The notes under the pieces are model-generated. The model searched no databases and was not told the DNA's origin. It saw nothing but the letters and a program-made list of their open reading frames with translations. A program made the position numbers and the translations under genes. This document shows, piece by piece, positions 5,796-11,756 of a stretch of 64,000 nucleotides of DNA. Numbering within the stretch: the first letter of the stretch is position 1; each line of letters begins with the position of its first letter. This DNA comes from Frondihabitans sucicola (GTDB lineage Bacteria; Actinomycetota; Actinomycetes; Actinomycetales; Microbacteriaceae), in NCBI RefSeq assembly GCF_030296615.1, contig NZ_AP027732.1, forward strand, positions 2,294,001 to 2,358,000, in the 5' to 3' direction.

Positions 5796-6024
5796 GGAGC
5801 GGGGTGCGGGTGTCGGGGTGGGGCGTCGCTGGGGAGGCGCGTGATCGGTGGTGCGTCGTCGATGGGGGAGAAGGGGCAGGATCACGTCCCGTCGCGAGGA
5901 ACCGCGGCCCGCGACTCCAACACCGCTGACCAGCCTCGGCGTCGGACGAGCTGCGCGGGATCGGTGCCGCCCAGCGAGAATGCCGCCAAGCGGGATGTCG
6001 CCCAGCACGCCATACGGTTGTCGC

Positions 6025-6600
6025 ATGACGAGGCAGACGGAGCAGGCGTGGCGCACGACGAACCGAGAAGAGGTCTACCGGGGTCGTGTCCGGTTGGTCG
6101 ATCACGCCGTGGAGTTCGCCGACGGCACCCGATCGCACTACGAGGTCGATGAGAGCATCCCGTTCGCCGTCGCTACCCTCGTCATCGACGGTGATGCGGT
6201 GATCCTGACCCGGCAGTATCGCTACCCGATCGACCGGTGGATCTACGACCTGCCCGGAGGCGCGGGAACAGACGGCGAAACTCCGGCGGAAGCCGCGAGT
6301 CGGGAGGTGGAGGAGGAGCTCGGGCTCGTCCCCAACGAGCTCGTGTCGCTGCACACCTTCTACGTGAACCCGGGCCGCGCTGCGTGGCCCGTGCACGTGT
6401 TCGTCCGCGACTCCGGAACGCGGAACGGCACGCCGGATCGCTCGGACCTCTCGGAGCAAGTCAGGCTCGTTCGATTGAGCGTGCGTGATCTGGACGCCGC
6501 GATCACGAGCGGTGAAGTTGTCGATCCGGCCCTGTTGGTGGCCCGTGCGGCCGCGGCGGTCCGGGGCTTCCTGCCGCCGTTGACCCCTGCGGCAGGCTAG
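6025..6600 (+). CDS. Nudix hydrolase, ADP-ribose pyrophosphatase-like
   Basis: 191 residues. The Nudix box is complete: the glycine of LPGGAG, the first Glu in DGETP, and the REVEEELGL helix that binds Mg2+. The preceding strand (LTRQYRYPIDRWIYDLPGG) is characteristic of the ADP-sugar pyrophosphatase branch. It should hydrolyse ADP-ribose or a related nucleoside diphosphate sugar in the cytoplasm. The ATG at 6025 gives the family N terminus; no Shine-Dalgarno sequence precedes it, so the mRNA may be leaderless. Confidence 0.85.
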   Translation: MTRQTEQAWRTTNREEVYRGRVRLVDHAVEFADGTRSHYEVDESIPFAVATLVIDGDAVILTRQYRYPIDRWIYDLPGGAGTDGETPAEAASREVEEELGLVPNELVSLHTFYVNPGRAAWPVHVFVRDSGTRNGTPDRSDLSEQVRLVRLSVRDLDAAITSGEVVDPALLVARAAAAVRGFLPPLTPAAG

Positions 6601-7201: not shown

Positions 7202-7278
<77 letters not shown>

Positions 7279-8773: not shown

Positions 8774-10471
8774 TCAGGATCGTCGCTCAGGCGGATTTCG
8801 CACCGGCGCACCCGCCCACCGGCTCAGAGCGGCGGTGAGGCCGATGCCGGCCTCGGTGGGGTCGGTGGCTTCGGTCGCCCAGGCGATGATGCCGTCGGGC
8901 CGGACCAGCAGGCCGGTCAGCGTCCGATAGGCGTCGGGGCACGCGACTGTCGCTGCGTCCTCGATGACGGTCGACACGCGCTCCGGCCAGCCGTCCGCGA
9001 TCCTGGTGAGGTTTCCCTTCAGGCGGTCGATCAGGACGAAGCTCGCGGTGTGGAAGTGGTCGGCGAGCCGGCCGCCGTCGGTGAGCGGCGCATCGCCGAC
9101 GAGCCGGCCGACGAGCGCGTGGCAGGGCTCCACGCCCGTGGCGGCCTCCGGTGCGACGTCGTACCGTTGGGCGACGCCGACGGTCGCGAGGACCAGGTGG
9201 GTCGTCGTGGTCGTGTTCGACAGGAGATCCTGTTGCACGATGCGGCGCAGCTGGATCGTCTTGTCGTCGCCCCGCATCAGGGCGACCTGGGCGCGAGTCC
9301 AGTCCAGAACCTGAGCGCCGATGGGGTGTCGCTCGGTGGAGTAGCTGTCCAGCAGTCCCTCGGGCGCCCAGCCGTTGACGGTCGCAGCGAGTTTCCAGCC
9401 GAGGTTGATCGCGTCGCCGGCGCCGAGGTTGAGGCCCTGCCCGCTGAACGGCGAGTGCACGTGCGCCGCATCTCCGGCGAGGAGGACGCGGCCGGCGCGG
9501 TAGGTCGTGGCCTGTCGGGCGTTGTCGGTCCACCGGGTCGCAGAGCCGTGGATGGCGCGGACGGTGACGTCGCGACCGGTCACCAGTCGGATGCTGGCCT
9601 GGAGCTCCTCCGTCGTCACCGGCTCGTCACGGACCGCCCGGTCGGGGGCACCCGTGAATTGGACGGTGAGAATTCGGCCCGGGATGGGCCCGAGGCAGTA
9701 CACCCCGGTGGGCGTGTGGTTCCAGCCCCGGCCGAGACCCTCGGTGCCTTCCAGATCGGCGATGGCCTGGTAGCCCGTGATCTCCGGGTCCGTGCCGACG
9801 AAATCGATGCCGGCCAGCCGGCGGATCCTGCTGCGCCCGCCGTCGGCCCCGACGACCCACGCGACGCGAATCGGGCAGCGACTGGTCGTGAGCGTCATCC
9901 CCGTCTCGTGCCCCTGGTCGTCGACGACGGACTGCATGCCCGTCACGTCGACGCCGCGCGCGACCTCGACTCCGAGGGCTGCGGCATGTGCTCCGAGCAG
10001 CGCTTCGACCTCGCTCTGTCGCACCATCGTGGAGCCGGCGGCCCCCGAGTGAGCGGCGATCTCGGGATCGGTCTGGTCGACGAGGTCGGGACGGAAGAAC
10101 ATCCCGGCGAAGTGACCCGTGCTGGGAAATGTGGGGCGTCCGTCGACTGCGGACGGACCGCCGGTCGGCGGCAGGGAGGTGCCGTTGGCGGCAGCGAACG
10201 CCCGGAGCTCCTCGAAGAACCGTTGTTGCGCGGCCTCTGCAGCCGGGCGCAGTCCACGACGGTCCAGGATCTCGGCCGTCGCCACAGTGATCGACCCCGC
10301 CTTGATCGTCGGATCTGGTGATTCGTGCCGGTCCAGCACGACGACGCTGACCCCGGCCGTGGCGAGCTCGGCCGCGACGAGGAGCCCGGTCGGCCCGGCG
10401 CCGATGACACCGACCTGGTAGTCGACGTCGGCGACCGCTTCGAGCGGAGGGATGCTGCTGTCGGACGTCAC
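8774..10471 (-). CDS. FAD-dependent aromatic monooxygenase (class A, Rox/PgaE type)
   Basis: 565 residues. The FAD-binding Rossmann start is GVIGAGPTGLLVAAELATAG; the second FAD contact is GDAAHVHSPFSGQGLNLGAG, and a thioredoxin-like C-terminal domain follows from about residue 400, as in polyketide and rifampicin hydroxylases. It should use NAD(P)H and O2 to hydroxylate a large aromatic substrate. It starts at GTG behind GAGGAGG. Its promoter overlaps an exact tetO-type palindrome and faces a TetR repressor, so substrate and inducer may be the same compound, possibly a tetracycline-like polyketide. Confidence 0.85.
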   Translation of the reverse strand: MTSDSSIPPLEAVADVDYQVGVIGAGPTGLLVAAELATAGVSVVVLDRHESPDPTIKAGSITVATAEILDRRGLRPAAEAAQQRFFEELRAFAAANGTSLPPTGGPSAVDGRPTFPSTGHFAGMFFRPDLVDQTDPEIAAHSGAAGSTMVRQSEVEALLGAHAAALGVEVARGVDVTGMQSVVDDQGHETGMTLTTSRCPIRVAWVVGADGGRSRIRRLAGIDFVGTDPEITGYQAIADLEGTEGLGRGWNHTPTGVYCLGPIPGRILTVQFTGAPDRAVRDEPVTTEELQASIRLVTGRDVTVRAIHGSATRWTDNARQATTYRAGRVLLAGDAAHVHSPFSGQGLNLGAGDAINLGWKLAATVNGWAPEGLLDSYSTERHPIGAQVLDWTRAQVALMRGDDKTIQLRRIVQQDLLSNTTTTTHLVLATVGVAQRYDVAPEAATGVEPCHALVGRLVGDAPLTDGGRLADHFHTASFVLIDRLKGNLTRIADGWPERVSTVIEDAATVACPDAYRTLTGLLVRPDGIIAWATEATDPTEAGIGLTAALSRWAGAPVRNPPERRS

Positions 10472-10513
10472 GGCGTCCTCCTCAAAAACTATCGGTGAAT
10501 GGGAACTTCGCCA

Positions 10514-10542
10514 TCATCAGCTATCACTGATAGTTTTGTCAA
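10514..10542 (-). promoter_or_regulatory. Promoter of the monooxygenase with tetO-type operator
   Basis: On the minus strand TTGACA (10542-10537) and GATGAT (10518-10513) form a -35/-10 pair with an 18-bp spacer. Inside the spacer lies CTATCACTGATAG (10521-10533), a perfect palindrome with the half-site and one-base centre of classical tetO. A degraded second site, CTATCGGTGAATG, starts at 10489. Repressor bound here would block the monooxygenase promoter and probably tetR too. Confidence 0.75.
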
Positions 10543-11130
10543 ATGGTCAAAATCAATCGAGACGTCGTGATCGGTGAAGCGCTCGAACTGCTCGACGAGG
10601 TCGGCCTCGACGCCGTGAGCACGAGGCGGCTCGCTCAGCGGCTCGGTGTCGAGCAGCCCTCGCTGTATTGGCATTTCCGCAAGAAGAGCGACCTCCTCAG
10701 CGGGATGGCCCAGGCGGCGATGCTCGGGCATGCCGAGGCACCGCTCCCCGACGACTCCGACGAGTGGCAGGCGTGGTTCGTGGAGAACTACCGCAGCTTC
10801 CGGCTCACCCTCCTGCACCACCGAGACGGCGCGCGACTCCACGCCGGCCTCCTTCCCGGACAAGCCGACTACGAGCGGATCCTGCTCAAACAAGCCTTCC
10901 TGGTCGCGTCAGGAGTCCCGGTGAGAGACGCTCAGATGGCCATGCTCGCCGCGAGTCGCTTCACGGTGGGCAGCGTCCTCGAAGAACAGGCCGACCCCGA
11001 GAGCGACCTCGGAGAGCGAGCGGCCGTGGAGCTCGGGGCGCCCAGGATCGATCACGAATCAGCTTTCGAGGACGGGCTCAGGCTGATCGTCGAGGGCCTT
11101 CGCGCGCGGGTCGAGAAGGAACCGGGATAG
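10543..11130 (+). CDS. TetR repressor of the tetracycline-responsive subfamily
   Basis: 195 residues. The helix-turn-helix (STRRLAQRLGVEQPSLYWHF, residues 27-45) is very close to that of the tetracycline repressor. HRDGARLH at 93-100 matches the inducer-binding HRDGAxxH stretch, with His100 at the position that binds Mg-tetracycline in TetR. The operator 10 bp upstream of the start codon has the tetO core. I infer that it represses itself and the divergent monooxygenase and responds to a tetracycline-like ligand. No ribosome-binding site is seen before the ATG, so the mRNA may be leaderless. Confidence 0.85.
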   Translation: MVKINRDVVIGEALELLDEVGLDAVSTRRLAQRLGVEQPSLYWHFRKKSDLLSGMAQAAMLGHAEAPLPDDSDEWQAWFVENYRSFRLTLLHHRDGARLHAGLLPGQADYERILLKQAFLVASGVPVRDAQMAMLAASRFTVGSVLEEQADPESDLGERAAVELGAPRIDHESAFEDGLRLIVEGLRARVEKEPG

Positions 11131-11228: not shown

Positions 11229-11756
11229 TCAGGTCCGTTCGTCGCGCAGGATGCTGAAGATCTCGGAGTCTCGCCATCCCTCGGCGAGACGGTGGGTGTG
11301 GCGCAACCTGCCCTCGTAGGTCATGCCGATCCGGCGAAGGATTTTCGCCGAGGCACCATTGCGGGGGTCGCAGGTCGCTTCAACGCGTTCGACCCCGAGA
11401 GTGTCGAACGCCCGGGAGACGAGCAGCTCTCCGATGGCCGAACCGATGCCCCGCCCCCAGAGGGCGACGTCCACCGCGTACGAGATCTCTGCGCGATGGG
11501 AGCTGTGGATCCTGAGCTCGCCAAGACCGGTGACGAAACGGTGAGCATCCTCGGCAACCCAGATCCATCTCGACTGAGGGCGGGTCTCCCATGCCGAGAG
11601 GGCGTGGTCGACGAAGGCCGCGGTGTCTGCTTCGGTATTGGGCCCCCAGGGCTGAAACACGGAGGCTTTCGGGTTGGCGGCCCACTCGTGAATTCGCGGT
11701 GCGTCGGAGGGTCGAATCGGCCGCAACGTCAGGTCTTTCGCCTCGACGTGTTGCAT
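11229..11756 (-). CDS. GNAT-family N-acetyltransferase (RimJ/RimL type)
   Basis: 175 residues starting MQHVEAKDLTLRPIRPSDA, the usual opening of RimJ-like acetyltransferases. The acetyl-CoA loop is WGRGIGSAIGELLVSRAF, followed by RVEATCDPRNGASAKILRRIGMTYEGRLR, the conserved motif B region. It should transfer acetyl from acetyl-CoA to an amine, possibly a protein N terminus; the substrate cannot be told. The ATG at 11756 is chosen because the frame upstream enters the divergent HAD gene's leader. Confidence 0.85.
   Translation of the reverse strand: MQHVEAKDLTLRPIRPSDAPRIHEWAANPKASVFQPWGPNTEADTAAFVDHALSAWETRPQSRWIWVAEDAHRFVTGLGELRIHSSHRAEISYAVDVALWGRGIGSAIGELLVSRAFDTLGVERVEATCDPRNGASAKILRRIGMTYEGRLRHTHRLAEGWRDSEIFSILRDERT

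Follow-up and report, generated by a model that had tools for sequence, protein, structure and literature searches.

A tetO-like operator pair upstream of a Rox/PgaE-type hydroxylase gene in Frondihabitans sucicola: a putative two-gene switch of hybrid origin

The analyzed stretch of Frondihabitans sucicola DNA (64,000 nucleotides, hereafter the window; genome G000, 4.68 Mb, 2 contigs) carries a divergent gene pair, composed of a flavin monooxygenase (FMO-A) and a TetR-type repressor, which overall is best explained as a self-contained two-gene chemical switch, hybrid in origin; we consider this explanation rather probable. The operators, the promoter-like elements, the homologies and the difference in partner can be read directly from the DNA. 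The mechanism that we propose comprises the following steps: (i) a TetR-type dimer would bind the tetO that lies between the -35 and -10-like elements of FMO-A; (ii) it would also bind a second, variant operator just downstream; (iii) this binding would silence FMO-A and probably the repressor gene as well; (iv) a chelating aromatic polyketide, tetracycline-related but perhaps not identical with tetracycline, would release the repressor; and (v) FMO-A would then hydroxylate that compound. By descent, the repressor would belong, together with the control region and its two operators, to a widespread module that normally has a Tet(50)/Tet(56)-like monooxygenase (FMO-B) as its partner, and FMO-A may have taken the place of FMO-B in the window lineage. 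The unusual feature of the locus is which monooxygenase is controlled, not monooxygenase control as such.

Table 1. Predicted features of the divergent pair (positions in the window)
Feature	Position	Strand	Basis or remark
FMO-A, class A flavin monooxygenase, 565 aa	8774-10471	-	FAD_binding_3 and Rng_hyd_C, conserved motifs
Distal operator variant CTATCGGTGAATG	10489-10501		8/10 arm bases; 32 bp from the proximal operator
FMO-A -10-like element GATGAT	10513-10518	-	Consensus match alone
Proximal operator, exact tetO core CTATCACTGATAG	10521-10533		Inside the FMO-A -35/-10 spacer
FMO-A -35 element TTGACA	10537-10542	-	Promoter scan
TetR_N and TetR_C_1 repressor of the tetO-associated clade, 195 aa	10543-11130	+	Divergent to FMO-A

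The proximal operator (Table 1), whose reverse strand CTATCAGTGATAG we take to be the tetO2 core of Tn10, is the sole site with at most two mismatches to the tetO core in the 64 kb, where shuffled sequences average 0.08 matches. The core was originally predicted to lie between the -35 and -10 of the monooxygenase, and it does so, because the promoter scan places an 18-bp spacer around it; the combination of TTGACA, an 18-bp spacer and GATGAT on the minus strand, a consensus match, is expected 0.1 times in shuffles. The start codon of FMO-A is GTG, preceded by GAGGAGG. The distal operator had been overlooked in the original prediction and is an addition to it. Two trivial readings were discarded: a chance palindrome at the tetO core is ruled out by the shuffle rate of 0.08 together with the positional conservation in relatives, and a decayed, meaningless distal site is contradicted by the same variant in 17 of the 47 relatives described below (among the matches listed).

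A search of genome contigs with the repressor alignment gave at least 80 loci, picked by two stretches of the repressor. Because the recognition helix was one of these stretches, some of the operator agreement follows from the selection itself, which did not extend to the identity of the partner. We analyzed 47 loci with repressor identity of at least 57% (L046-L091 and L115), leaving out L092 (50%), L093 (55%) and 31 loci in which this identity does not exceed 43%. Among the matches listed, the divergent partner is FMO-B in all 47 related loci; the proximal tetO-like site is perfect in 42 and none of the 47 falls below 8 of 10 arm bases there; the distal site is perfect in 21 and matches 8 or more of the 10 arm bases in 45, the distal variant of the window (CTATC[AG]GTGAATG) occupying this position in 17; the operators are spaced by 31 bp in 23 loci and by 32 bp in 7; and TTGAC lies near the repressor start in 42. 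In 20,000 draws of shuffled DNA, a perfect proximal core never appeared and a distal score of at least 8 was reached in 0.38%. Predicted control of FMO-A by the repressor through tetO, as originally claimed, is well supported by the conserved operator position, spacing and -35 element of these relatives. At a repressor identity of at least 50% (49 of the 80 listed loci), 48 have FMO-B, including L093, outside the 47; at the exception, L092, none was found.

Six loci of Pseudomonadota (L046, L050, L058, L065, L090 and L091) contain the same repressor/FMO-B module, with both operators perfect in L046, L050 and L065. The 31 loci at 43% repressor identity or less (among the matches listed) have no adjacent FMO-B. 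Seven loci (L097, L106, L108, L114 and L123-L125), in which repressors of 33-40% identity are divergent to FMO-A-like enzymes (35-42%), no tetO was found upstream and most tetracycline contacts are absent, are a separate TetR/FMO-A-like association; L122 has a partial FMO-A-like neighbor (33%).

The FMO-A protein matches both domains of three-domain aromatic hydroxylases (PF01494, 239.3 bits with a gathering cut-off of 22; PF21274, 69.2 bits with a cut-off of 27.5), and its translation contains the GxGxxG (VIGAGPTG), DG (GADGGRS) and GD (AGDAAH) motifs. When a profile of the FMO-A clade was used to search solved structures, the top matches were 4k2x (403 bits), 4k5r (402 bits), Rox (5kow and 5vqb; 368-382 bits) and PgaE (2qa1; 364 bits); we take 4k2x to be OxyS of oxytetracycline biosynthesis and 4k5r to be MtmOIV. 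Judged by these matches, FMO-A is a three-domain hydroxylase of the OxyS/MtmOIV/Rox/PgaE group, unrelated to FMO-B. This agrees with the original description of the partner as a 565-residue Rox/PgaE-type hydroxylase, with regard to both length and profile scores. A grouping with simple phenol hydroxylases, which had been named as grounds for rejecting that description, does not hold, because phenol hydroxylase structures reach 87-98 bits in the same search, vs. 403 for 4k2x and 382 for the rifampin monooxygenase. Compared with 4k5r, FMO-A is about 37 residues longer between positions 76 and 147.

Narrower assignments of FMO-A were also considered, and it lies below the curated cut-off of every one of the best 25 NCBIfam models listed. 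We rejected it as (i) a Rox orthologue (NF033145; 297 bits vs. a cut-off of 800), (ii) a type 1/2 tetracycline destructase (NF033476, cut-off 550; outside the best 25 models, which extend down to 55.7 bits), and (iii) a phenol hydroxylase (NF006144; 101.7 bits vs. a cut-off of 560, with the profile scores given above). The only close homologue of FMO-A among 249 genomes of the family is that of genome G097 (74% identity), all others being at most 45% identical; the best homologues among 345 genomes of the class reach 54%.

Across the 47 loci, the usual partner, FMO-B, is 60-88% identical to that of locus L005, with the exception of L085 (L085 and L005 being one and the same locus); the match in L076 extends over just 231 residues. 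Among solved structures, FMO-B reaches 169-181 bits with its six top matches and 65 bits with the next. Four of the six are the tetracycline destructases Tet(56), Tet(55), Tet(51) and Tet(50), and the other two (8twf and 8twg), deposited as 6-hydroxynicotinate 3-monooxygenase, are presumably Tet(56-2) and Tet(56-3). Residues D47 and E102 (Tet(50) numbering) have been reported as marks of tetracycline destructases, and both are present in FMO-B of L005 in an alignment read by eye. Two FMO-B proteins tested scored 182 and 197 bits vs. the destructase model cut-off of 550.

Within Microbacteriaceae, the repressor is found (E <= 1e-38) in 7 of 398 genomes, with FMO-B as the partner in five and FMO-A in two, the window and G097. 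Both FMO-A-linked repressors fall within a 54-row clade of the repressor tree (support 97/99), in which 51 of the other 52 rows are linked to FMO-B and the remaining one is the structure 3fiw, a 94% identical relative of which adjoins FMO-B. In the FMO-A tree, the enzymes of the window and G097 are sisters (100/100) within a 12-row clade (100/96). Five of its other 10 members (L126-L129 and L155) adjoin a divergent regulator of another type, TetR_C_14, recognized by Pfam (L126 and L155), by similarity (L127 and L128) or by eye (L129); two (L036 and L037) have a weakly similar regulator (35%), L132 has a 48-residue TetR-like match, and no regulator was found beside L130 and L131. The tetO pattern is absent from all nine scanned members of these 10 (L155 left out), and the operators of G097 are degenerate (7 of 10 arm bases). 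An exchange of partners is the simplest interpretation, FMO-A having come to occupy the position of FMO-B next to a shared type of control region: FMO-B accompanies the repressor in all 47 listed relatives, FMO-A stands in its place at the window and G097, and half of the other members of the FMO-A clade adjoin a different regulator. A constraint holding the two FMO-A-linked repressors together gave a p-AU of 0.056; a single origin is not rejected, and the exchange may have taken place once or twice. The G097 repressor forms a long branch, whose placement was flagged as unsure.

The similarity between the window and G097 is confined to the pair. Using blastn, the shared part spans only 8811-10857 (75% over 2,059 aligned bases), which covers FMO-A, the control region and the 5' half of the repressor gene, and the rest of the 64 kb has no match to the 19 kb around the G097 pair; a protein comparison of the ORFs of the first 30 kb of the window with the G097 region also gave matches only within the pair. 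A phage-type integrase gene (L184:12216-13643) starts about 1.4 kb past the repressor at the G097 locus.

On a Frondihabitans plasmid the FMO-B module adjoins two recombinase genes. A plasmid of Streptomyces coelicoflavus (L157:375-4624) carries two adjacent divergent pairs of TetR_C_1-type regulators and monooxygenases, one FMO-A-like (35%) and one FMO-B, one enzyme having Rng_hyd_C and the other lacking it; the FMO-A-like protein lies outside the 12-row FMO-A clade. As a conjecture, the exchange could come from such side-by-side pairs by deletion. The surroundings of the pair in the window include a tRNA-Pro (ggg) gene (7202-7278), located about 1.5 kb past FMO-A on its 3' side, a neighboring acetyltransferase gene (11229-11756), with a strong match (53%) only in G618 among six genus-mates, and a gene (5848-6597) with a 53% match only in G201 among the same six and, over 55 residues, a 62% match in G004. 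The locus may lie in a variable region; a search of PHROGs gave no match.

The repressor keeps the HRDGARLH stretch, including His100, and a recognition helix (VEQPSLYWHF) nearly identical to that of TetR(A) (VQQPALYWHF), just as first described; its identity with TetR(A) is 46%. With 195.8 bits it stays below the threshold curated for the tetracycline TetR model NF010319 (265 bits), and features of the NF010319 type, namely tetO in the regulated promoter and a matching recognition helix, are present at the window. Eight conserved tetracycline contacts of TetR are named in one source (His64, Asn82, Phe86, His100, Thr103, Arg104, Gln116 and Glu147), which ranks His64, Asn82 and Phe86 as most important for tetracycline binding and cites Thr103 as a key to induction (PMC8326586). 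Four of the eight (Asn82, Phe86, His100 and Glu147) are kept in the window repressor and four are replaced (Ala64, Leu103, Leu104 and Lys116). The retained His100 had been taken as an inducer motif; the residue is indeed there, but His100 alone makes no tetracycline sensor, and the argument is weak because only half of the contact residues are kept.

Among the matches listed, all 47 relatives share Asn82, His100, Glu147 and Lys116. Ala occupies position 64 in 41 of them, and 46 have His at position 63; at position 103, Ser or Thr is found in 40 and Leu in five, and Arg104 is present in five. Changes at 64, 104 and 116 are usual in the repressor clade. On the Mg-chelate side, the clade has kept a large part of the pocket, with other contacts remodeled. 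A chelating aromatic polyketide is the likely inducer, and tetracycline itself is a possible one. The repressors of the window and G097 are 78% identical in the DNA-binding part and 46% in the ligand domain. The TetR-family structure 3fiw, a member of the same clade with 66% identity to the window repressor, gives 78% and 59% for the respective halves; we take its locus to be SCO0253/SCO0252, on which no paper was found in the open-licence literature.

Several points weigh against the two-gene switch in the form favored here: Thr103 is replaced by Leu (as in 5 of the 47 listed relatives), and His64, Arg104 and Gln116 are also changed; the G097 operators are degenerate; and the repressor remains below the TetR model cut-off. 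The ligand domains of the window and G097 are 46% identical vs. 74% for the enzymes, and it would therefore be odd if both repressors sensed the substrate of the enzyme. A substantial possibility, though not a probable one, is that the switch senses some other aromatic polyketide or a soil or plant phenolic, which FMO-A would detoxify or catabolize, tetO being inherited and uninformative on the ligand. The DNA-binding half, more conserved than the ligand half in the comparisons with both G097 and 3fiw, argues for this, and Lys116 in 47 and Ala64 in 41 of the 47 relatives (among the matches listed) point to a pocket altered throughout the clade; against it, His100 and Glu147, invariant in the 47 (among the matches listed), would fit a chelated, tetracycline-like keto-enol ligand.

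We regard as possible but doubtful a true tetracycline-inactivation module, analogous to MabTetRx/MabTetX, in which tetracycline releases the repressor and is inactivated by FMO-A. The four replaced contacts speak against it, as do the lack of any destructase-model match of FMO-A above 56 bits (cut-off 550) and the about equal scores of angucycline, rifamycin and mithramycin-type enzymes with FMO-A; consistent with it are the tetO core with the retained His100, Asn82, Phe86 and Glu147, the resemblance of the usual clade partner FMO-B to type 2 tetracycline destructases, the top profile match of FMO-A to 4k2x, presumably OxyS, and the response of MabTetRx to tetracycline, doxycycline and anhydrotetracycline, documented in the source cited below. 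That the pair is a remnant of biosynthetic tailoring, neither a resistance nor a detoxification unit, is suggested by the many polyketide-pathway oxygenases among the solved relatives of FMO-A, but seems very unlikely given that the DNA similarity to G097 is limited to the pair and that no polyketide synthase was noticed in the ORF list over about 6-16 kb (four flanking genes scanned, one in G097). The locus is a plausible candidate for an antibiotic-inactivation pair.

The analysis provides a list of tetO-controlled monooxygenase loci of non-clinical bacteria in which the inducer could be tested, and a natural case of the same operator pair serving two unrelated oxygenases. Should tetracyclines prove to be the inducers, the TetR sensor would be tied to enzymatic inactivation widely outside pathogens; otherwise, a tetO match cannot predict a tetracycline response. 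A wider proposal, which we hold to be rather unlikely, is that tetO/TetR is an exchangeable sensor cassette of environmental Actinomycetota and Pseudomonadota, mainly driving destructase-like monooxygenases and here re-plugged onto a second oxygenase of different structure; FMO-A would then be a further enzyme inactivating tetracycline-type compounds, and the efflux-linked tetR one use of an older sensor.

The original prediction that known tetracycline repressors mostly control efflux or ribosome-protection genes, on which the novelty of the locus was based, proved too strong, since MabTetRx/MabTetX is known and the close relatives of the window repressor that were examined also adjoin a monooxygenase. 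A TetR-controlled tetracycline monooxygenase is already known, and what is notable here is the exchange of the controlled enzyme. MabTetRx acts on MabTetX as a repressor via tetO; tetracycline and doxycycline relieve the repression, and anhydrotetracycline is a further inducer (PMC6143652). MabTetX did not raise resistance in Mycobacterium smegmatis (PMC9430549), and a destructase survey records no resistance from MabTetX in Escherichia coli (PMC10944477); an E. coli tetracycline reporter with TetX is described in a further source (PMC2949611). The system of Mycobacterium abscessus (MAB_1497c/MAB_1496c) resembles the window in that a TetR-family repressor and tetO govern a flavin monooxygenase, but is an operon with a 35-bp operator, in contrast to the divergent genes and two sites of the window. 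With at most one mismatch, 22 bases of the published MabTetX forward primer were found in 22 of 326 genomes of the PPE-bearing genus, taken as Mycobacterium; of 10 primer-matching loci read by eye, only L165 resembles a related monooxygenase, with an interrupted FMO-A-like gene and an exact match to the 22 bases.

Among solved structures, FMO-B, which is the partner usually found in the clade, is closest to the type 2 destructases Tet(50), Tet(51), Tet(55) and Tet(56), whereas FMO-A belongs to another class A group, with an Rng_hyd_C domain; in the part of the open-licence literature surveyed, we found no account of actinomycetes in which a Tet(50)-like enzyme is paired with tetO and TetR. The tetR/tetA genes of Tn10 are divergent and have two operators. 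The window shares this layout with Tn10-type systems, as well as the tetO core and a near-identical recognition helix, but has a monooxygenase instead of an efflux pump, and its repressor, 46% identical to TetR(A), has half of the ligand contacts changed.
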